Virus record (IMG/VR): IMGVR_UViG_3300028394_000089
Location: 1-57,191 of that record
Origin: a virus
DNA length: 57,191 nt
Strand: one strand, 5' to 3'
Positions 11,448-49,315 of this stretch are shown piece after piece (the first letter of the stretch is position 1; the number at the start of each line of letters is the position of its first letter). The notes under the pieces were generated by a model, which saw nothing but the letters and a program-made list of their open reading frames with translations, did not search any database and was not told the DNA's origin. A program made the translations under genes and the position numbers.

Positions 11448-12926
11448 ATGGCGTCAATTCGTAGCGTAGATATAGAAAAACACGTTCTAGCTGGCTTTAT
11501 CAAGCATCCAGGGGTATTCTTTGAAGTATCTCACTTCATTAATGAGGGCGACTTTAGCAATGGTCATAAAACCATCTTTAGCGTTCTAAAAGGGCAGATT
11601 ATGAAAAGTCAACCACTTGATGCGGTAATTATCGCTGAAAAGATAAAGAGCTTGGGCATTAGTTATAAACAGGATTTTAATATTTTTGATTACATAGAAA
11701 GCATTGCCTTTCTAAAGATTAGTCAAAAGTCTCTTTTGGAAGCGTGTAAGAATCTTAAAACAATTACGATTCGGCGCGAAATTGCTGAAACGGCGGGGCT
11801 AATTGCAGATTCGATGTCAAATTCTGGAGATAAATCTGCAGATGAAATTATTACTCTTGCAGATAAGATGTATAACGATAAGATTTCGGCTTACGACTTA
11901 GAATCAAATCCAGAAGACCTTTTTTCTGATATAGATAAGCTGATTGAAGAGAGGGCTAATAATCCAATTTCAGAAACAGGATTTTTAACCCCATATAAAC
12001 ATTTTAATAAAATGTATGGCGGACTAAGGCCTGGGGAGCTTTACGCTTGGGTAAGTCGTCCAAAACATGGTAAGAGCACAATTCTCAGTGATATTGCAGC
12101 TAAAGCCACTTTAATTAACCCGAATTTACAAGCTTTAATTCTTGATACTGAAATGCAAACTAGCGTTATTAAATTTCGTATTGCTAGTAGTATTACTGGT
12201 ATTCCAATGTGGTATCTAGAAACTGGTAATTTTAAAAATAATCCAGAATTGTTGGCAAGATGGAATAGTAAAAAGACAGAGTTATCCAAAGCACAGGGTA
12301 AGGTAAAGCATCTTCAAGTGGCTGGAAAACCAGTTTCTGAAATCGAATCTATTATTCAGCGCTGGTATCTTGGGCAAGTTGGTCGTGGTAATCCAGCTAT
12401 TGTGGTATATGATTATATTAAACTAACTGGAGAAATGGAAAAAAATAAACAGGAGTATCAACTTATTGGCGACAAAGTAGATCGTTTGAAAGAGTTGTCG
12501 GTTCGTCTTAATATTCCATTGCTTACTGCTTGCCAATTAAATCGCAGCGCCGAAAATGGTGCGGATGATAGCAGTGCTATTGCACAAAGTGATCGTTTAC
12601 AATGGTTTGCAGCGTATGTGGGTATTTTTCGTCGTAAAACAATTGAAGAGCGCGCAGAAGATGGCGCGCAATTCGGTAGTCATAAAATGATTGAGCTTGC
12701 GGCGCGTTATCAGGGTCAAGATGCGCATGGTCATACAGATTTAGTGCGTATTGTAGAAAATGGTCGCCCACAATATCGTAAGAATTTTATTTCTTTTAAT
12801 GTCGAAAATTTTAATGTAGAAGAGAAGGGAACGCTTCAAGATATTGTTAACCATCAAAATGGTGTGGGTATTAATATTTTTGATCGTGAAAATGGCGTAC
12901 AGCAACCAGAGGATGGATTACTATGA
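11448..12926 (+). CDS. DnaB-like replicative helicase
   Basis: A 492-residue RecA-fold helicase. Residues 1-120 resemble the DnaB N-terminal domain (EKHVLAGFIKHPGVF at the start). The RecA domain has GGLRPGELYAWVSRPKHGKST with Walker A at 203-211, Walker B VVYDYIKL near 318-325, and a LTACQLNR motif near 355 (DnaB H3/H4 region). It unwinds DNA at the fork as a hexamer. It overlaps the primase gene by 4 nt, matching their physical partnership. AAGGAAAAA 10-18 nt upstream is a possible weak ribosome binding site. Confidence 0.9.
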   Translation: MASIRSVDIEKHVLAGFIKHPGVFFEVSHFINEGDFSNGHKTIFSVLKGQIMKSQPLDAVIIAEKIKSLGISYKQDFNIFDYIESIAFLKISQKSLLEACKNLKTITIRREIAETAGLIADSMSNSGDKSADEIITLADKMYNDKISAYDLESNPEDLFSDIDKLIEERANNPISETGFLTPYKHFNKMYGGLRPGELYAWVSRPKHGKSTILSDIAAKATLINPNLQALILDTEMQTSVIKFRIASSITGIPMWYLETGNFKNNPELLARWNSKKTELSKAQGKVKHLQVAGKPVSEIESIIQRWYLGQVGRGNPAIVVYDYIKLTGEMEKNKQEYQLIGDKVDRLKELSVRLNIPLLTACQLNRSAENGADDSSAIAQSDRLQWFAAYVGIFRRKTIEERAEDGAQFGSHKMIELAARYQGQDAHGHTDLVRIVENGRPQYRKNFISFNVENFNVEEKGTLQDIVNHQNGVGINIFDRENGVQQPEDGLL

Positions 12927-13813
12927 GACTTCTAGAACTATTAAAAGATTCGGGTTGCAAACCGAGAAATTATGGAACTTATATTACTTGTGCTGCTAAG
13001 TATCGCGGTGGCGATGATCCCACGTCGATAGCAATCTATCTGACAACAAATATTGTTAAAGATTTTGTTACTGGAAAGGTGTTCTCTTTAGAGGAGTTTT
13101 TAAAAGCGACTTTCCAACTTCAAGATGTAAAACAGGTTGAAGATATTCTTAAGGATAAAGCTACATATTTTAAAGCTTTTAATGACACCGAAGATCCTTT
13201 TGCCAAAAGCGTTAAGTATTATTCTAATGATGACATAGTTGATTTAAAACGTGATGGTCTTTACTGGGGTAAAAGAGGCGTAAGCCAAGAGACTCTCGAT
13301 GTTTTTGAAGGCGGGGTATGCAAGACTGGTAAAATGTATCAGAGGTACGTTTTCCCTATTTTTAATGCTAGAAAAAAAATACAGGGATTCTCTGGTCGTG
13401 ATATAACTGGACAATCTAAAATCAAATGGAAACATATAGGGCGAAAAAATGAATGGGCGTATCCATTTATTTTTAATCATCAAATTATTAGAGAAAAAAG
13501 AGAGTTAATTCTTGTAGAAAGTATTGGTGATATGCTTTCATTATGGCAAAGCGGTATCAAAAATACTGGAGTAACATTTGGAACCGAGGCTGGTGGAGGC
13601 TTGCTTAAGGCAATAATACGTCTCGATCCAAAGCGTATCATCCTTGCGACCAACAATGATGATAACAGGGCTGGGCAGAAAGCTGCTACAAAAATACAAT
13701 CTACGCTTGTACATTTTTTTGACCCAGCTCAACTTCATATTTTTCATCCATATAAAAACGATTTTGGAGATCAAACAGTAGAAGAAAATCAGGAGTGGTA
13801 TTCAAATATATGA
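12923..13813 (+). CDS. DnaG-type DNA primase with TOPRIM domain
   Basis: A 296-residue primase. The TOPRIM domain is clear: ILVESIGDML with Glu199 and Asp203, and ATNNDDNRAGQKAA with Asp246/Asp247 and Gly251. The N-terminal 30 residues (C12, C23) look like a reduced zinc-binding domain without the full CHCC set. A C-terminal helicase-binding domain is absent, so the protein is much shorter than bacterial DnaG. The gene overlaps the helicase by 4 nt and the deaminase start by 4 nt. Confidence 0.85.
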   Translation: MRLLELLKDSGCKPRNYGTYITCAAKYRGGDDPTSIAIYLTTNIVKDFVTGKVFSLEEFLKATFQLQDVKQVEDILKDKATYFKAFNDTEDPFAKSVKYYSNDDIVDLKRDGLYWGKRGVSQETLDVFEGGVCKTGKMYQRYVFPIFNARKKIQGFSGRDITGQSKIKWKHIGRKNEWAYPFIFNHQIIREKRELILVESIGDMLSLWQSGIKNTGVTFGTEAGGGLLKAIIRLDPKRIILATNNDDNRAGQKAATKIQSTLVHFFDPAQLHIFHPYKNDFGDQTVEENQEWYSNI

Positions 13814-14232
13814 GAAGCACTTGGGAACAACACGCTATGAATTTAGCCGCTATTGCTATGCAAAGATCAGAAGATCCTTTTCAAAAGGTCGGAGCTTGCG
13901 TTCTTGGGCATAATAATGAAGTATTAGCTGTAGCTTATAACGGTCTTGCTGCTGGAGTAAACGTTACACCAGAGTTTTGGAAAGATCGTGATGCGCGAAG
14001 ACCGTATATGATACATGCCGAAAGTAATCTACTTGCTAGGATTAAAATGGGTGAAGGCAAACTTTTAGCTTGCACTCTTTTACCCTGCTCATCGTGCGCT
14101 ACAAATATTGCTGCCTATGGAATTAAAAATGTTATTTTTAAAGACATTTACAATAGAGACGTTAAATCAATTGATATTTTTAAATTTTATGGAATCTCTT
14201 GTCATCAAGTAGATCCAACATACCCATTATGA
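13810..14232 (+). CDS. deoxycytidylate (dCMP) deaminase
   Basis: Zinc-dependent deaminase of 140 residues. The zinc and catalytic residues are HAE at 69-71 and PCSSC at 92-96; FQKVGACVLG and YNG near 43 match dCMP deaminases, which make dUMP for thymidylate synthesis. The ATG at 13810 is preferred to the in-frame GTG at 13795 because it forms the ATGA overlap used throughout this operon. Its product feeds ThyX (26877-27557). Confidence 0.85.
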   Translation: MRSTWEQHAMNLAAIAMQRSEDPFQKVGACVLGHNNEVLAVAYNGLAAGVNVTPEFWKDRDARRPYMIHAESNLLARIKMGEGKLLACTLLPCSSCATNIAAYGIKNVIFKDIYNRDVKSIDIFKFYGISCHQVDPTYPL

Positions 14233-15218
14233 GTGAATTAATTAAACTTTCAGCTAGTCGTATCAAGACGCTACAATCTTGCTCTTGGACTTATTACTGC
14301 AACTACAATTTAAAGTTACCCCAGAAAAATAACTCTGGTGCGATGCGTGGAACGGTAGCTCACCTTATTTTTGAAGTTCTAGGTAACCCTAGGCATGGAC
14401 ATTATATAAAAAAAATTGTCAAAGATAGCACATGTTTAAAACAAAAAGCTATTTTTCGTTTAATAATTAAAACTGCTAATAGGGAGGGTCTTGATCTTGA
14501 CGAGATGGTAAAGCCATTAAAGAAAAATGGTCAAGAAATATCAAATCTTAAATGTATTGACGAGATGATTTTAGTCGGATTAAAATTTGATTTTATTGGA
14601 GACGCAAAACTAATAGGGACTGAATGGGAATTCGATATAACTAATAAACAACCAGCGTATAGAATCGGTGGATTCATTGACCGTATTTTTAAAGATAAAA
14701 AACAATTAGTAATCAGAGATTTTAAATCAAGTAAACTTGCTTTTAAGGGTGAAGAATTGGAAAGTAATATTCAAGCAATGATGTATTCTTTAGCTGTAAG
14801 GAAAAAATATGCTAAACAAAAAGAAGTTCTTGTTAAATTTTTATTTTTAAGATATCCCGATAATCCCGAACGTGAATGTCCGCATTTTACAGAAGAGCAG
14901 TTAATTGGATTTGAGCATTACCTTGAATATTTAAATGGTTATTTAACAAATTTTGATGAGAAAAAGGGTAAATCAAACTTTGCGGCAAACGATTTTGCAA
15001 AAAAATGGATGTGCCAAACCAAATCTGGATGGCGTTGCCCTTATTTTGATCCTATAGATTATAAAGTTTTACTGGATAAAGACGGCAAAATTATTAAATC
15101 AATATTTGCAGATAAAGAATTTAAACCGTTAGATATTAAAAAAGATTATCATATTGAAATAAGAAGGTATGAAGGTTGTCCAGCTTGGAAAAAGTCTAAT
15201 AATGACTTTGACTTTTAA
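14229..15218 (+). CDS. PD-(D/E)XK nuclease, RecB/Cas4-like
   Basis: A 329-residue protein beginning with the SASRIKTLQSCSWTYYCNY motif typical of the AddB/Cas4/PDDEXK_1 family. Catalytic elements are RGTVAHLIFE (His45), GGFIDRIF (Asp151) and VIRDFKSSK (Asp164, Lys166). Cys18 with C-terminal cysteines (MCQTKSGWRCPYF) could hold an iron-sulfur cluster as in Cas4. It likely trims DNA ends during recombination or replication. ATG 14229 overlaps the upstream TGA (ATGA); an upstream TTG start is less likely. Confidence 0.8.
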   Translation: MSELIKLSASRIKTLQSCSWTYYCNYNLKLPQKNNSGAMRGTVAHLIFEVLGNPRHGHYIKKIVKDSTCLKQKAIFRLIIKTANREGLDLDEMVKPLKKNGQEISNLKCIDEMILVGLKFDFIGDAKLIGTEWEFDITNKQPAYRIGGFIDRIFKDKKQLVIRDFKSSKLAFKGEELESNIQAMMYSLAVRKKYAKQKEVLVKFLFLRYPDNPERECPHFTEEQLIGFEHYLEYLNGYLTNFDEKKGKSNFAANDFAKKWMCQTKSGWRCPYFDPIDYKVLLDKDGKIIKSIFADKEFKPLDIKKDYHIEIRRYEGCPAWKKSNNDFDF

Positions 15219-15236: not shown

Positions 15237-15244
15237 GTTTGTAC

Positions 15245-15997
15245 ATGTTACCTATTTTTAGATCAAACTACTCGCTGACTTCTGTTTTGACTCTCGATAG
15301 TTATACAGATAAAGAATCTCGTGATACCAATCGTCCAGATTCGATTTTTGATATAGCTAAAGATTATGGGCTAAAAGATGTTTATATTGTTGATAACACT
15401 CTTACAAGTCTTGTTGAGGCTTATGAAAATTCAAAAAAAGCGGGTTTAAATCTAAGATATGGTTATAGAGTTAATGTTTGCATGGATATAGAAAATAAAA
15501 CTCCAGAGTCAGTTATTACAGAGAGTAAATTTATTATCTTTGCAAAAAAGAATTCTTTTGCAGATCTGGTTAAACTTCATAATATATCTACCACAGATGG
15601 AGTTTATAATGGAGCGCCGCGTTTAGATTTTAAAACTTTAAAAAAGTACTGGTCAAATAATTTGATTTTAGGTATTCCATTTTACGACTCTTATATTTAC
15701 TACAATCTTCTTTATGGTAGAGAGTGCGTTCCAGAGATGGATTTTACCGAGCCGTTTTATTTTAGTGAAAATAATGGATTACCATTCGATGGTCTTTTGA
15801 ACGATCATCTAAAATCAATAGTTGGAGATCATGAGATCGTTGAATCTAAAACTATTTATTACAGAACTTATAAAGATTTTAAAGCTTATATGACGTATCG
15901 GTGTATTTTAAATAGAACAACATTTCAAAAACCCGAATTAAGACATTTCGGCAGTCAGGAGTTTTGTATGGAGGCTTGGGAAAAATATGCAAAGTAA
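15245..15997 (+). CDS. PHP-domain subunit of a split C-family DNA polymerase
   Basis: A 250-residue protein that matches the layout of the DnaE N-terminal PHP domain. A first strand is followed by SIFDIAKDYGLKDVYIVDN, then a helix (LVEAYENSKKAGLNLRYGY) and IIFAKKNSFADLVKLHNIS with a PRLDFKTLKKY segment. The metal-binding HxH of active PHP domains is replaced (RSNYS), so it is probably structural. The gene ends 11 nt into the exonuclease gene. The start at ATG 15245 is favoured by promoter spacing; TTG 15239 is the alternative. Confidence 0.7.
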   Translation: MLPIFRSNYSLTSVLTLDSYTDKESRDTNRPDSIFDIAKDYGLKDVYIVDNTLTSLVEAYENSKKAGLNLRYGYRVNVCMDIENKTPESVITESKFIIFAKKNSFADLVKLHNISTTDGVYNGAPRLDFKTLKKYWSNNLILGIPFYDSYIYYNLLYGRECVPEMDFTEPFYFSENNGLPFDGLLNDHLKSIVGDHEIVESKTIYYRTYKDFKAYMTYRCILNRTTFQKPELRHFGSQEFCMEAWEKYAK

Positions 15998-16619
15998 TCT
16001 TCTACGTTTTAATAAAAAACAAAAATATTTAATTTTCGATTGCGAAACCGAAAGTCTAGCACTTGCATTAACTCGGCCTTGGCAATTATCTTGGTTAGTG
16101 TATGAAGATGGTAAAATTGCAAAAAATGAAGACCACCTGTTATATTGGAAAGATCTAAATATTTCGGCTGATGCGGCAAGAATTACTCATTTTGATTATA
16201 ATAATTGGAAAGAAAAAGCCAAAGATCCACTAACAATTCTTAAAAAATTTGAAGAGTATCTTTACAATCCAGAGTATTTGATTATTGGCGCTAATCTTTT
16301 TGGGTTTGATATTTATGTAATAAATTCTCTTAGAAAATATCTTGGATTAGAGTCGGATTATTCTTATATTGATAGAGTTCTTGATATACAATGCCTTCAA
16401 AAGGGGATATATTTAGGGCTTAAAGAGCTACCGTCAAAAAGAACTGCTTGGCAATATCAAATGTATCACTACGTTAAAAGGGGGGTTAAAACTTCGGTAA
16501 AACATCTTGCTGGACTTTACGATATACCTTATGACGAAAATAACGCACATGACGCAAAATATGATAACCTATTATGTTTAGAAATCTTTAAGAAGCAAAT
16601 TTTAACAATTGAAGTATGA
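15987..16619 (+). CDS. DnaQ-like 3'-5' exonuclease (proofreading)
   Basis: A 210-residue DEDD exonuclease. Exo I is FDCETES with Asp18 and Glu20, Exo II is GANLFGFDIYVI near residue 96-107, and Exo III is NNAHDAKYDN near 182-191, with His making it DEDDh type. It sits between the PHP and polymerase genes with 11-nt and 4-nt overlaps, so it most likely proofreads for that polymerase. This gene order mirrors PolC, where the exonuclease is inserted in the PHP domain of one polypeptide. Confidence 0.85.
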   Translation: MQSNLLRFNKKQKYLIFDCETESLALALTRPWQLSWLVYEDGKIAKNEDHLLYWKDLNISADAARITHFDYNNWKEKAKDPLTILKKFEEYLYNPEYLIIGANLFGFDIYVINSLRKYLGLESDYSYIDRVLDIQCLQKGIYLGLKELPSKRTAWQYQMYHYVKRGVKTSVKHLAGLYDIPYDENNAHDAKYDNLLCLEIFKKQILTIEV

Positions 16620-19144
16620 GTTTTATAGAACAGTTTAAAAATATTGAAATGAAGAATGTCAACCTCGTCAGGTTGCCTAACATTTTATTTACAAAAGAAG
16701 AAAAGGGCAAGTTTGCCGAAACCGAAGATAACGAGAAGTTCCTCCAACAGTTGGTAAATGATGGGTGGAGAAAGTTTCGTGATAAGATTCCAGAGAATAA
16801 AAAGAAGGAGTATCTTAATCGTATTAAAGAGGAATTTGATATTGTTAAAGATTTAGGGTTTATTGATTATTTTCTTCTAGTTTGGCGTGTTATTAATAAG
16901 GCACGTAGTCTGGGAGCATTTATTGATTGGGGTCGTGGTAGCGCGGCGGGTAGTCTAATTTTCTATTTGATTGGCGTTACTGGCGTTGACCCTATTGATA
17001 AGAAATTGTTTTTTACGCGGTTTATATCAAAGGCTCGGGCTAAGAAAGAGGTTATTGATGGAGTCACGTATATTCAAGGTGATTTAGCTCCAGATGTTGA
17101 TATTAATCTCGGCGGCGTTCGTGATGAAATTATTGAGTGGTTAAAAGAATGTTATCCGAATAAAGTTTGCAAGATTTCTTCTCTGTCCACATTCTCTGGT
17201 AAAATTCTTGTTAAAGATGTTTACAAGATTGTTAACGAAGCAACAGAAGAACAGGCTAGTAATTTAGCGGATACAATCGGTAAAGTATTCGGAGTTGTTG
17301 AAGACATTGAAGATTCTTATAAAAATAGTGAGAAATTCCGCGATTGGGCAGATGGGTACAAGGAGTCTTACGAAATTGCGCTTAAGCTTCGTGGGCTTAT
17401 TCGTGGTAAGTCTACCCATGCAAGTGGATATTTTCTTTCATATTATCCGTTAGATAAATTTGTTCCCATCGAAAAGAACAAAGAAGGGGAGTTGGCTATC
17501 TCATATGAGATGAATACTGCTGCAAAATTTGGTATTAAGTTGGATTTGTTGGGACTTATCAGTAATGAAATTATTAAGAATGTATTTGAACAGATTACAG
17601 AGAAGTTTGAAGATATTGATCTTGACAATAATCCAGAAGTATATGAGCATTTGCAAGATGATAAATTACTTCCTTATGGTTTATATCAGATTAGTGCGGA
17701 TTGTGCTTACCGTGTTTGTAAGAACATTAAACCAGCAAATATTAGCCAATTGAGTGACGTTAACGCTATAGCTCGACCTGGGGCGTTAGCCTATGAAAAG
17801 CATTATGTTGATTTTACGGGAGAAGCCCCGCATGAAAAATTGCGTGAAGTGTTTTTAGAGTCACGCAATCTTCCCTTATATCAAGAGCAATTAATTCAAG
17901 CCCTTGTTACAGTTGGATTTACAGCTGACGAGTCTGAATATATTAGGCGTATTATTGGTAAGAAAAAGCGTGATGAGATGCCCAAGTGGAAAGATAAAGT
18001 ATTTGAAACTTGTGAGACGAATGGATTTGGCGAGCAAGTTGCGGAAGCGATTTGGAAAGTCATGTTGGATTCTGCAGATTATTCGTTTAATAAATCGCAC
18101 AGCTTTTGCGTGGCATATCTTGGCGCATTAACTGTTTACCTAAAGTATAAATATCCTTTAGAGTTCTTTACATCATGTTTAAATGCCGTCCAAAAACTTG
18201 TAGATCCAATGGAAGAAATACGTTTAATTGAACGTGAACTACCTTATTTTAATATTAAACTCCTACCTCCGCATCTGTTGAAGTCCGAAATGGGATTTAC
18301 AGTCGAAGGTCCGAATATCCGTTTTGGATTGAGTGCAATCAAAGGTATTTCAGATAGTGCAATGGAAAAATTAGTTAAGTTTCGTGGCGAGTATGACAGT
18401 AAGATTGATTGTTTTATGGCAGCAAAACAGGCTGGTTTAAATATTGGAGTGGTATCTTCACTTATCCAAGCGGGTTCTTTGGATGATCTAAATACTAAAC
18501 GTAGTCGTCTTGTTCTTGAAGCTCAGACATTTAATATTTTAACTGATCGTGAAAAGCGTTTGGTCAAAACAGTTCATGACGAGACGGATCAAAAGGATAT
18601 TCTAACTATTTTAACAATTCTTGTTGAAAAGAGTCAAGTAAAAGCCTCGCGCTTTGAAACGATTAAAAAGAAATACAATCCGTATAAAGAAATCTATATG
18701 TTGAATAGTCGTAATGAAGATCTAACAAACTATTTTTATGAGAAGAATTGTTTGGGATTTAGTTATAGCCAGAATTTAACTAAGATTTTTAAGAATATTA
18801 ATCCTAATTTTAAAACTATTCGATACGCGTTTGAGAATTGCGAGGAGAACGATCAAGTACTTATTATTGGAGAAATTCTAGAAACTCGTCAGTCGAAATC
18901 TCGTAATGGTAATAAGTTTTTTAAAGCTGGGGTAGCCGACGATACAGGAAAGGTTTCAGTACTTCTTTTCGATGGTCAACGCGGACTATTTCAAGAGTGT
19001 AAAGACGAGAATAAGGGCAATTTTCCTGAAGAGGGGGACATCGTAATTGTTAAAGGTCGTCTTAAAGGAGATGATGCTATTTTTGCAGACAAAATAGTCA
19101 AACAGGATTGTAAGATATATAAAAATATGAGAGATTTAAAATAA
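16616..19144 (+). CDS. DNA polymerase III alpha-like catalytic subunit (C family)
   Basis: An 842-residue polymerase lacking its own PHP domain. Palm motifs are WGRGSAAGSLI at 105-115, PDVDINL at 159-165 with catalytic Asp160 and Asp162, and LDLLGL about residue 306 with the third Asp. Finger and thumb segments follow (FNKSHSFCVAYLGALTVYLK near 494). Residues about 745-830 form an OB fold (ETRQSKSRNGNKFF...). It is the fork polymerase of the phage. The TAA stop abuts the stop of the convergent structural gene with no spacer. Confidence 0.9.
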   Translation: MSFIEQFKNIEMKNVNLVRLPNILFTKEEKGKFAETEDNEKFLQQLVNDGWRKFRDKIPENKKKEYLNRIKEEFDIVKDLGFIDYFLLVWRVINKARSLGAFIDWGRGSAAGSLIFYLIGVTGVDPIDKKLFFTRFISKARAKKEVIDGVTYIQGDLAPDVDINLGGVRDEIIEWLKECYPNKVCKISSLSTFSGKILVKDVYKIVNEATEEQASNLADTIGKVFGVVEDIEDSYKNSEKFRDWADGYKESYEIALKLRGLIRGKSTHASGYFLSYYPLDKFVPIEKNKEGELAISYEMNTAAKFGIKLDLLGLISNEIIKNVFEQITEKFEDIDLDNNPEVYEHLQDDKLLPYGLYQISADCAYRVCKNIKPANISQLSDVNAIARPGALAYEKHYVDFTGEAPHEKLREVFLESRNLPLYQEQLIQALVTVGFTADESEYIRRIIGKKKRDEMPKWKDKVFETCETNGFGEQVAEAIWKVMLDSADYSFNKSHSFCVAYLGALTVYLKYKYPLEFFTSCLNAVQKLVDPMEEIRLIERELPYFNIKLLPPHLLKSEMGFTVEGPNIRFGLSAIKGISDSAMEKLVKFRGEYDSKIDCFMAAKQAGLNIGVVSSLIQAGSLDDLNTKRSRLVLEAQTFNILTDREKRLVKTVHDETDQKDILTILTILVEKSQVKASRFETIKKKYNPYKEIYMLNSRNEDLTNYFYEKNCLGFSYSQNLTKIFKNINPNFKTIRYAFENCEENDQVLIIGEILETRQSKSRNGNKFFKAGVADDTGKVSVLLFDGQRGLFQECKDENKGNFPEEGDIVIVKGRLKGDDAIFADKIVKQDCKIYKNMRDLK

Positions 19145-19897
19145 TTAGTAATTTTTTGTAATTACATAGTTACCTTGAACAAACCCGCCAGCTTCTACAC
19201 TATTTTCAGAGCTTTCTATCTTACCATTAGTAATACTAATTGTTGCTAAATTACTACTCGTACAAATAGCTCCTATATTAATTGTAGCTGATTGTGTTGT
19301 AGGGCATTGGGCAATATATTGTCCAGCATTAATACCACGTAATGTTAAACTTTGTTTTGCACTATTAAAAATTATGCCAGCATTCGTACTGCTACCTAAA
19401 ACATATAATGGTTGCCATTCAACAGTTGCGGAATAATCAAATCCAATTGCATTTGTTAAAGATATATCAGTTGCAGTTCCATGACCGATACTTTCTGTTT
19501 GGGAAGACGATCCGCCACCTATTGAAAATGCACCACCACCAGCTCCAAAAACCGTAAATGAAGCCGATCCATTAACTATAGAATTTGCCTCACCATTTAG
19601 TGTGTGACTTGTCAGATAAGCTGTATAGGTTAAACCACCAATAGTAACTTGTGTACCTTGGTAAGAGGTAGGACTTGCGATAATAGTATTAAAAATACTA
19701 CCAATCGGATCACTAGTAACAATATAGCTAATAGACATAGTTCCTTGGACTGGACCATTAGGTATGCTAGCGATAGCTTTTATATTGCCAAGGGCACGTA
19801 CGCCCTCTAATGGAACTTGAAAAGAAACACTGGCATTAGTAGCAAACAATGACGATCCACCTACACTAACTGTTACATTTTGATATGACAATGCCAT
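19145..19897 (-). CDS. virion structural protein, tail-tube-like (hypothetical)
   Basis: A 250-residue protein rich in Ser, Thr, Gly, Ile and Val, with a MALSYQNVTVSVGG start and alternating beta pattern typical of phage tail or decoration proteins. The segment GFDYSATVEWQPLYVLGSS matches in layout SFEYNVNCERTPLFVMGSR in the next gene upstream, so the two appear to be paralogues. It follows that gene by 10 nt in one minus-strand operon. Its stop abuts the polymerase stop tail to tail. No database family is claimed. Confidence 0.6.
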   Translation of the reverse strand: MALSYQNVTVSVGGSSLFATNASVSFQVPLEGVRALGNIKAIASIPNGPVQGTMSISYIVTSDPIGSIFNTIIASPTSYQGTQVTIGGLTYTAYLTSHTLNGEANSIVNGSASFTVFGAGGGAFSIGGGSSSQTESIGHGTATDISLTNAIGFDYSATVEWQPLYVLGSSTNAGIIFNSAKQSLTLRGINAGQYIAQCPTTQSATINIGAICTSSNLATISITNGKIESSENSVEAGGFVQGNYVITKNY

Positions 19898-19907
19898 AAT
19901 AATTTAA

Positions 19908-20702
19908 TTACATCAAAAAGCTTCTAAAGAGCAACTCTACGGTAGAAGAATTTTCGATACTACTATCGTAAGTATTTGATATTAATCTAGCATTCGGCAA
20001 ATAGAATGACTCGATAGTTTGTGTTTTATTACAATTTTTTAAATAAATTTGCAAATTTTGTATGTTAGGAGTACAAAGCAGGGTTTGAATATCAGATAAT
20101 TCATAGTCATCAATTTCTATTGATAATTTTAATTCGGCAGTTACTGGCTTTTTTAAAAGAACATCCGATGGATCTCTAGAACCCATTACAAACAATGGGG
20201 TTCTTTCGCAGTTTACGTTATATTCAAAAGAAGTAATACGATTTGTAGAACCCTCATTTGCGTTAATAATAATACTGCCAGCATTTGCTACATAAATATT
20301 GTCAGTATTTGTAGACGGGATAATTGATTCCTCTACACCTCCACCTATATTATTATAAACAATAAAATCTGTAGTAATATTAGCAACATCTCCAATACCG
20401 CATGAAGCAGAATATCTTGTTAAATACCCACTTTTAAAACCAAAAGAATTATTTTTATAAGATATAAAACCATTACATGATCTATTGCCAGTAAGGTATT
20501 TTAATGGATCTGCTTGTATTAAAAATCTGCTAAATGATATATTTCTAGAGCTTTCCCCCTGCGAAGTCGCAGCAAAATTACCACCTAATACATCAATATT
20601 ATCAAAAGGTATATCAAAATCACCATTAAAACTATTTACACCAGACAGTTCTTGTTGATTTATAATTAGCTTTTGATCGGCATATATATTTCTTCCGTAC
20701 AT
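19908..20702 (-). CDS. virion structural protein, paralogue of the downstream gene (hypothetical)
   Basis: A 264-residue beta-rich protein. It begins MYGRNIYADQKL and contains ERTPLFVMGSRDPSDVLL, the counterpart of EWQPLYVLGSS in 19145-19897. Both read like tail-tube or baseplate-type virion proteins with a shared fold. The gene has a GTGTAAA motif 15 nt before its ATG, the same element seen ahead of other virion-like genes in this window. It is first in a two-gene minus-strand operon and is divergent from 20764. Confidence 0.6.
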   Translation of the reverse strand: MYGRNIYADQKLIINQQELSGVNSFNGDFDIPFDNIDVLGGNFAATSQGESSRNISFSRFLIQADPLKYLTGNRSCNGFISYKNNSFGFKSGYLTRYSASCGIGDVANITTDFIVYNNIGGGVEESIIPSTNTDNIYVANAGSIIINANEGSTNRITSFEYNVNCERTPLFVMGSRDPSDVLLKKPVTAELKLSIEIDDYELSDIQTLLCTPNIQNLQIYLKNCNKTQTIESFYLPNARLISNTYDSSIENSSTVELLFRSFLM

Positions 20703-48101: not shown

Positions 48102-48323
48102 ATGAAAAAACAAAATAATCATAAATTTAATCAGGCCATATTATGGCTATTAACAATTCCAACCGAAGAATTATCAGACTCAATGGTTTTAGCGCACAAA
48201 AGGATGCAGGAAGAAGACCAAAATGAAATTTGGTTGGTTGATTATTTTGAAAACAATCTAAAAGAAGAAATCGAAGAATTTATTGAGTGGAACGATACTT
48301 TTCTACAAACCAAAGCTGTATGA
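48102..48323 (+). CDS. hypothetical small protein
   Basis: A 73-residue acidic helical protein, starting directly after the MazG stop and overlapping the GMP reductase/IMPDH-like gene by 4 nt (ATGA). No motif is recognised. The context suggests nucleotide metabolism. Confidence 0.5.
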   Translation: MKKQNNHKFNQAILWLLTIPTEELSDSMVLAHKRMQEEDQNEIWLVDYFENNLKEEIEEFIEWNDTFLQTKAV

Positions 48324-49315
48324 CTATATTGAAATCCAGTTCAATTTATTATGATGATGTAAATTTGATTGCGCAACCAACAGATATTTCGTCACGATCC
48401 GAAATTCCAGAGGAAAAATGGCGCATTATGGTAAGCCCAATGCAGTCAATCGTTGGCCCGATCTTTGCAAAAAAAGCTCTTGAACTCGGACTATCTGTTT
48501 GCTTACATCGTTTTAATTCAACTATACAGGACAGATTAAAATTAATTAATGACGTATTTATGAACATGACCGATCCAAATACTCAAATTAAAAGAGTTTG
48601 GGTTTCCGTAGGATTAAAAGATTTAGAAAATATAGAAGCTATTATACATCAAGGAGTAGAGAATATTATTATTGATGTAGCTAATGGGTATATGTCAGAC
48701 GTAATTGAATTTGCGTCACAGATCTTTCATAAATCTGAAAAACAGATTAAAAAAATAATGCTTGGGAATATTCATAGCGATACCATTCTTACGGATTATC
48801 AGAATCTTTCTATTTATTTAGGAATACCAATTTATTTTAGGTGTGGTATTGCGAGTGGGAGCGTTTGTAATACCAGCGTAATGACTGGATACAATCGCGG
48901 CCAAATTACCGAAATTAATGAATGTGCCACTTGGGTTGACTCTACTAATAGTAATTTACTTTTAGTGGCTGATGGCGGAATTGCTAATCCAGGGTGTGCA
49001 GTAAAGGCTTTTGGTGCTGGTGCTGAATATATAATTATGGGCGGTTATTTTGCACACGCTAAAGAATCGCAGCACGTTATTGATGAGATTTATAAGTTTT
49101 GGGGTGGAGCTTCAGAACTTCAACAAATCATGTCTAAAGGGGCTGCTGAACGTCATAGCGAAGGCAGGGAACAAGATATCAATAAAGACGATCTTTTAAG
49201 CCTAAATAAACTAGTTTCTGATTTATGGGGCGGTATTAGTAGCGGTGTAAGCTACAGTGGATATAAAACTCTCACAAAATTTATTGGAAATGCCGTGTTT
49301 GAAATCAAAGAATAA
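48320..49315 (+). CDS. GMP reductase/IMP dehydrogenase-like TIM-barrel enzyme
   Basis: A 331-residue enzyme. The catalytic loop is GIASGSVCNTSVMTGYNRGQ with Cys in the place of the active-site Cys of IMPDH and GMP reductase, and MGGYFAHAKES near 233 matches the family's phosphate loop. The C-terminal segment MSKGAAERHSEG corresponds to the MSxxxA.....GxxEY region. A CBS domain is absent, which points to GMP reductase-like proteins. It would interconvert IMP and GMP in the phage-infected cell. ATG 48320 (ATGA overlap) is preferred to GTG 48287. Confidence 0.75.
   Translation: MTILKSSSIYYDDVNLIAQPTDISSRSEIPEEKWRIMVSPMQSIVGPIFAKKALELGLSVCLHRFNSTIQDRLKLINDVFMNMTDPNTQIKRVWVSVGLKDLENIEAIIHQGVENIIIDVANGYMSDVIEFASQIFHKSEKQIKKIMLGNIHSDTILTDYQNLSIYLGIPIYFRCGIASGSVCNTSVMTGYNRGQITEINECATWVDSTNSNLLLVADGGIANPGCAVKAFGAGAEYIIMGGYFAHAKESQHVIDEIYKFWGGASELQQIMSKGAAERHSEGREQDINKDDLLSLNKLVSDLWGGISSGVSYSGYKTLTKFIGNAVFEIKE

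Follow-up and report, generated by a model that had tools for sequence, protein, structure and literature searches.

The PHP domain is strictly conserved in bacterial replicases, and its role is not fully understood (PMC3666897). Loss of its metal ligands accompanies a separate exonuclease, and PHP is structural, its integrity modulating the stability and activity of the polymerase (PMC3666897). The isolated residues 1-270 of Escherichia coli Pol III are well behaved and show full exonuclease binding (PMC3642679). In PolC the exonuclease is inserted within PHP and the OB fold is N-terminal, and in Bacteroidetes DnaE1 the exonuclease is joined by a linker to the PHP N terminus within one chain (PMC3919608). 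Among phages, the group 2.2 jumbo phages of Iyer et al. (2021) have a Pol III core split over two distant genes, plus a B-family polymerase (PMC7824862), and a survey of marine jumbo phages reports the polymerase family PF07733 in half of one cluster (PMC9123017). Here we describe a virus locus in which a PHP protein, a DEDDh exonuclease and a C-family polymerase are encoded by three separate genes, called PHP, EXO and POL below. The locus lies in IMGVR_UViG_3300028394_000089, one linear virus record from IMG/VR that is 57,191 bases long, the whole of which we refer to as the window.

A reading of the window made from the sequence alone had described three overlapping genes at this site, and the layout holds: all three are open reading frames (ORFs) on the + strand, and they overlap in different reading frames. 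The main features are as follows, with conservation counted over the 87 non-redundant relatives introduced below.

15245..15997 (called as 15239-15997), + strand: PHP gene, 250 amino acids (aa); PF02811 at 1.5e-7, over the cut-off
15677..15691, + strand: PFYDS motif of PHP; P145, F146 and Y147 in 87/87, D148 and S149 in 86/87
15987..15997, + strand: PHP/EXO overlap, 11 nucleotides (nt); in relatives the spacing runs from overlaps of tens of nt up to inserted genes
15987..16619, + strand: EXO gene, 210 aa; phrog_192 'DNA polymerase exonuclease subunit' at 1.4e-15
16616..16619, + strand: EXO/POL overlap, 4 nt (ATGA), compatible with translational coupling
16616..19144, + strand: POL gene, 842 aa; PF07733 at 2.3e-49, PF17657 at 7e-22, PF14579 at 3e-17 and PF01336 (OB) at 3e-6
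17093..17101, + strand: polymerase catalytic Asp160 and Asp162, 87/87 conserved
17543..17545, + strand: polymerase catalytic Asp310, 87/87 conserved

Although gene calling placed the start of PHP at a TTG (15239), relatives align from the third codon, and translation therefore probably begins at the ATG at 15245.

Relatives of the locus were gathered from eight scans of viral contigs and one scan of genome contigs and deduplicated by POL DNA, which gave 277 distinct loci. Clustering at 85% POL identity left a non-redundant set of 87 members, with pairwise POL identity down to 35%. All three parts were in view in 268 of the 277 loci, and in 267 of these they are separate ORFs ordered PHP-EXO-POL. 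Bacterial DnaE genes found with the same profile mostly have ∼300 aa upstream in the same ORF, showing that the method does detect a fused PHP. Since the same layout recurs in 267 of 268 loci, chance or sequencing error is excluded as its source. Neighboring genes commonly overlap, by 1 to 46 nt, and at least one gap of 100 nt or more separates the genes in 128 of the 267 split loci. Where the larger gaps were read, they hold unrelated genes, including those for a LAGLIDADG endonuclease, a SET-domain protein and an IMP dehydrogenase. Given this variable spacing and the foreign genes in the junctions, programmed frameshifting or read-through is very unlikely. The sequence-only reading had raised two concerns, a sequencing frameshift joining the ORFs and a second DnaE elsewhere in the genome. 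We found no such frameshift, and every record searched, namely the window and 20 related contigs (fragments of up to 203 kb, the greatest length reached in the group), has a single PF07733 match.

The three genes have also evolved in step. Pairwise distances correlate at 0.81 for PHP and POL and at 0.81 for EXO and POL, compared to a maximum of 0.19 in 2000 shuffles. A tree of 58 polymerases groups the 37 split ones together on the same side of one branch, which has full support in the Shimodaira-Hasegawa-like approximate likelihood ratio test (SH-aLRT). A tblastn search of phage records returned no match to the window's EXO and three weak matches to its PHP, which indicates a clade without a close isolate in that collection.

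The PHP protein was said to be degenerate, and it keeps no metal ligand: the positions aligned with the metal motif HHDHEH[C/H]DH hold other residues, none of them conserved across the non-redundant set. On these residues we predict that the protein is catalytically dead. The gene is nonetheless under purifying selection, with a ratio of nonsynonymous to synonymous substitution (dN/dS) of 0.05-0.12, and its predicted structure (AlphaFold2) has a predicted local distance difference test score (pLDDT) of 86. The protein ends close to the residue-270 boundary of the E. coli Pol III fragment. Its PFYDS motif occupies the stretch that holds a Cys/His metal ligand in DnaE, and EXO or POL might bind there.

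The other two proteins carry intact active sites. EXO was correctly assigned to the DEDDh exonucleases, with D18, E20, D108, H188 and D193 each present in 87/87 members. Its predicted structure (pLDDT 91) has the RNase H-like DEDDh fold of DnaQ and matches a DnaQ domain (8h18) at Z 19.4, E. coli epsilon at Z 19.3 and the PolC exonuclease at Z 18.2, and the NCBIfam scores are 22.0 bits for epsilon and 19.8 bits for the PolC exonuclease. EXO is thus a separate DnaQ/epsilon-like DEDDh exonuclease, and because its epsilon and PolC scores are close, it may have come from either. POL is the C-family core with a C-terminal OB fold that had been read from the sequence: palm, thumb and fingers are followed by (HhH)2 (PF14579 at 546-631) and the OB fold (PF01336 at 748-819).

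One of the 268 loci, a 173-kb contig (L479), is the sole fusion. It encodes EXO and then a single 1147-aa ORF containing PHP and POL, in which the PHP end motif EFCLESW runs straight into the POL start FEKQF...GVRLP. The PHP ends and POL starts of the split members align contiguously with both L479 and bacterial DnaE but lack part of the linker. This contiguous alignment with fused DnaE indicates that PHP and POL together correspond to one DnaE chain, divided within the linker between PHP and palm. The fusion supports the idea that the separate PHP and POL proteins belong together. A nuclease-like gene similar in sequence to the window's PDDEXK gene likewise lies upstream in L479. In a later tree the fused polymerase falls among the split ones, and an approximately unbiased (AU) test of an ancestral against a re-fused L479 favored neither (p-AU 0.095, with a long branch).

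We conclude, with a probability of roughly three in four, that the locus encodes the core of a replicative polymerase belonging to the phage itself, namely a DnaE-type alpha with a separate PHP gene and an epsilon-like EXO gene between its halves. By analogy with the bacterial enzyme, the three proteins most likely assemble into an alpha-epsilon-like core in which PHP serves as a scaffold subunit of its own. Judged by conservation, POL would perform synthesis through its catalytic Asp triad and EXO would proofread through its complete DEDDh site. The dead PHP would be a folded scaffold docking on the POL palm and keeping EXO near the DNA, as PHP does within E. coli alpha, with PHP and POL touching across the old linker boundary. 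Translation of the three genes is probably coupled, and assembly may occur at roughly 1:1:1. The split itself would have arisen by fission of the gene within the PHP-palm linker and would work without trans-splicing, because no intein sequence occurs at the PHP/EXO/POL junctions. The results obtained with E. coli Pol III residues 1-270 (PMC3642679) and with bacterial PHP domains (PMC3666897) make such a PHP-POL-EXO core plausible. A stronger version, in which PHP is an obligate but dissociable third subunit, an exchangeable or regulated scaffold between polymerase and proofreader, and in which losing the covalent link has functional consequences instead of being a neutral fission, is possible but doubtful.

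The sequence-only reading had taken the locus for PolC laid out as separate proteins. The gene order PHP-EXO-POL fits that idea, and EXO matches the PolC exonuclease about as well as epsilon. However, the best fold match of PHP is to Taq DnaE residues 7-259 (Z 21.8, with a root mean square deviation of 2.6 over 229 aa), compared to Z 18.4 for the PolC PHP; the latter match is stretched over PolC residues 340-784 by the exonuclease that PolC carries within its PHP, whereas the phage PHP is colinear and uninterrupted, without an exonuclease insert. The profile comparison that the sequence-only reading had called for points the same way. Against solved structures, the POL profile matches DnaE at 3.6e-116 and PolC at only 7e-10; POL scores 381.6 bits to the DnaE model PRK05673, covering its positions 288-1049 of 1146, and the matches listed for POL include no PolC model. 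The OB fold is C-terminal as well, where that of PolC is not. On these profile and fold scores we reject a PolC origin for PHP and POL, which are DnaE-type, and a PolC laid out as three proteins is very improbable for the locus as a whole. We call the pair a DnaE-type divided polymerase and not a canonical DnaE, because PHP is a separate ORF in all loci with three parts but L479. The suggestion that these subunits are one polypeptide elsewhere therefore stands in part: they are probably subunits of one enzyme, as the L479 fusion indicates, but the single-chain counterpart is DnaE, not PolC.

PHP and EXO might instead be independent proteins, acting for example in repair or regulation beside a PHP-less polymerase. 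The separate ORFs, the frequent inserts between them and an assembly that is inferred only all leave room for this, but the conserved order, the correlated evolution, the likeness of PHP to the PHP of polymerases, its dead metal site and the L479 fusion make it improbable. Less credible by far is a single polypeptide, made either by programmed frameshifting or through trans-splicing of the proteins. The overlaps between genes of different frame, and split inteins in the POL of some relatives, could be read that way, yet the spacing and relative frame vary freely, foreign genes occupy the junctions, and both the ends of PHP and the beginnings of POL align directly with DnaE, without intein sequence. 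Apart from the overlapping ORFs, nothing speaks for one gene broken by sequencing or assembly frameshifts; an identical split across independent assemblies, in loci whose POL proteins are as little as 35% identical, gives that explanation a negligible probability, and we reject it.

Several points weigh against a divided replicative core. Physical assembly is inferred from homology, synteny, co-inheritance and the PHP-POL fusion, and that natural fusion is one long-branch contig. Shared descent of genes in one genome would by itself yield part of the distance correlation. Insertions lie between the genes in many loci, which means that their translation need not be tightly coupled. With its 210 aa, EXO stops after a last helix at 190-204 and lacks the C-terminal tail by which E. 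coli epsilon binds PHP and the clamp, so any contact with PHP must differ from that in E. coli. POL seems to end before the DnaE C-terminal domain: no such tau-binding domain, itself poorly conserved, was recognized, and the PRK05673 match stops at 1049/1146. No conserved Q..[LMI][FLY] site corresponding to the clamp-binding motif QxxLF was found in POL (the best column reached 19/87), and no DnaN clamp was found in 14 related contigs. A T4-type clamp model matched nothing in the relatives, but it matched nothing in control genomes either and is therefore uninformative. With no canonical clamp motif, DnaN, epsilon tail or C-terminal domain found, the proposed core does not explain processivity.

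In some relatives POL carries a second split, which falls in the fingers at the motif NYSFNK|C...SN|SHS (L177, L199, L206, L211, L259, L334/L415, L435 and L477). From their sequences these second splits look like the work of split inteins; a group I intron was considered as their cause and rejected, as no Rfam match was found. In some of the loci read closely, a GIY-YIG-like or DUF559/NUMOD3-type (Vsr-like) nuclease gene lies between the POL halves. The arrangement resembles the 'fractured gene' organization with split inteins. LAGLIDADG-like endonuclease genes also occur between replicase genes, in L004 (by Pfam match) and in L011, L108 and L223 (by eye), and SET-domain and IMP dehydrogenase/GMP reductase genes recur in the PHP-EXO junction (L055, L064, L065, L128, L144 and others). 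An IMPDH-family gene is also present elsewhere in the window, at 48287-49315.

Upstream of the three genes the window carries further replication functions.

11448..12926, + strand: DnaB-type helicase gene; PF03796 at 7e-21
12923..13813, + strand: Toprim DNA primase gene; phrog_47 at 5e-25
14199..15218, + strand: PDDEXK exonuclease gene, immediately upstream of PHP; PF12705 at 2.5e-18

A dCMP deaminase gene lies upstream as well, and together these four neighbors mark the locus as a replication module. Directly after POL, at 19145-20702, are two adjacent minus-strand genes whose products look alike, and 14 tRNA genes are scattered over the right half of the window (29408-57043). Viral contigs of the clade (L250-L259) were binned in metagenome-assembled genomes labeled Flavobacteriaceae, Saprospiraceae, Halobacteriovorax and others, which are possible contamination or possible hints of hosts.

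The role of PHP is hard to measure in a fused polymerase, which unfolds cooperatively. A separate, dead PHP can be added or removed, so that its effect on polymerase stability, proofreading and processivity becomes measurable, and the fused L479 enzyme provides a matched control for the split one. The group is large and numbers at least 277 distinct loci. Searches of six large related contigs, which are fragments, found no polymerase of the A or B family. Given both observations, the three-gene enzyme may be the main replicase of an abundant group of uncultivated phages.

The claim that phages rarely carry C-family polymerases proved outdated: tblastn with POL gave matches in 1317 of 50,697 phage records, some of which are mislabeled bacterial contigs. 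Two records named 'Bacteriophage sp.' (L248 and L249; MT836213 and MT835632) have bacterial-looking housekeeping genes beside a DnaE with an intact-looking PHP and look like bacterial contigs. A divided phage Pol III alpha is already known, but we found no earlier description in the open-licence literature of PHP as its own gene in a phage replicase, nor an earlier case divided at the PHP boundary. Group 2.2 jumbo phages likewise divide the Pol III catalytic subunit between genes, but there the division runs through the core itself, the genes lie far apart, and the phages lack other Pol III domains and have a B-family polymerase, whereas in the window's clade the POL core is intact, PHP is present and the B-family model PF00136 found nothing in the six large contigs. 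Two-gene forms of DnaE alpha also occur in Bacillus phage G (gp329/gp339) and Cellulophaga phage phi19:2 (gp44/gp45). In phi19:2, however, the cut is inside the catalytic core, while gp329 of phage G, at 765 aa, is too long for PHP alone and the cut also seems to lie within the core; in these two-gene forms PHP remains attached to part of the polymerase. A homing endonuclease gene lies between gp329 and gp339 (L330, 239245-250008).

Among cultivated phages, the Pbunavirus Pseudomonas phage F8 and the Wifcevirus EC150 share a phage DnaE with a small gene directly upstream that weakly matches EXO and is annotated in F8 as a 3'-5' exonuclease. They differ from the split loci in that PHP is fused to POL, in the order EXO then PHP-POL, an arrangement that L479 resembles. 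Gram-positive PolC has the same parts, PHP, exonuclease and C-family polymerase, but as a single chain with the exonuclease inside PHP and the OB fold at the N terminus. Bacteroidetes DnaE1 is, like the phage enzyme, DnaE-type with a dedicated DnaQ domain, but it too is one chain. The DnaE1-type alpha of E. coli and Thermus differs in that the phage PHP has its own gene with the exonuclease gene between the halves, and in that its C-terminal domain, epsilon tail and canonical clamp motif were not found in the phage set. It shares with the phage enzyme the order PHP, palm, thumb, fingers, (HhH)2 and OB fold, a separate DEDDh proofreader and, in E. coli, a PHP that is degenerate as well.

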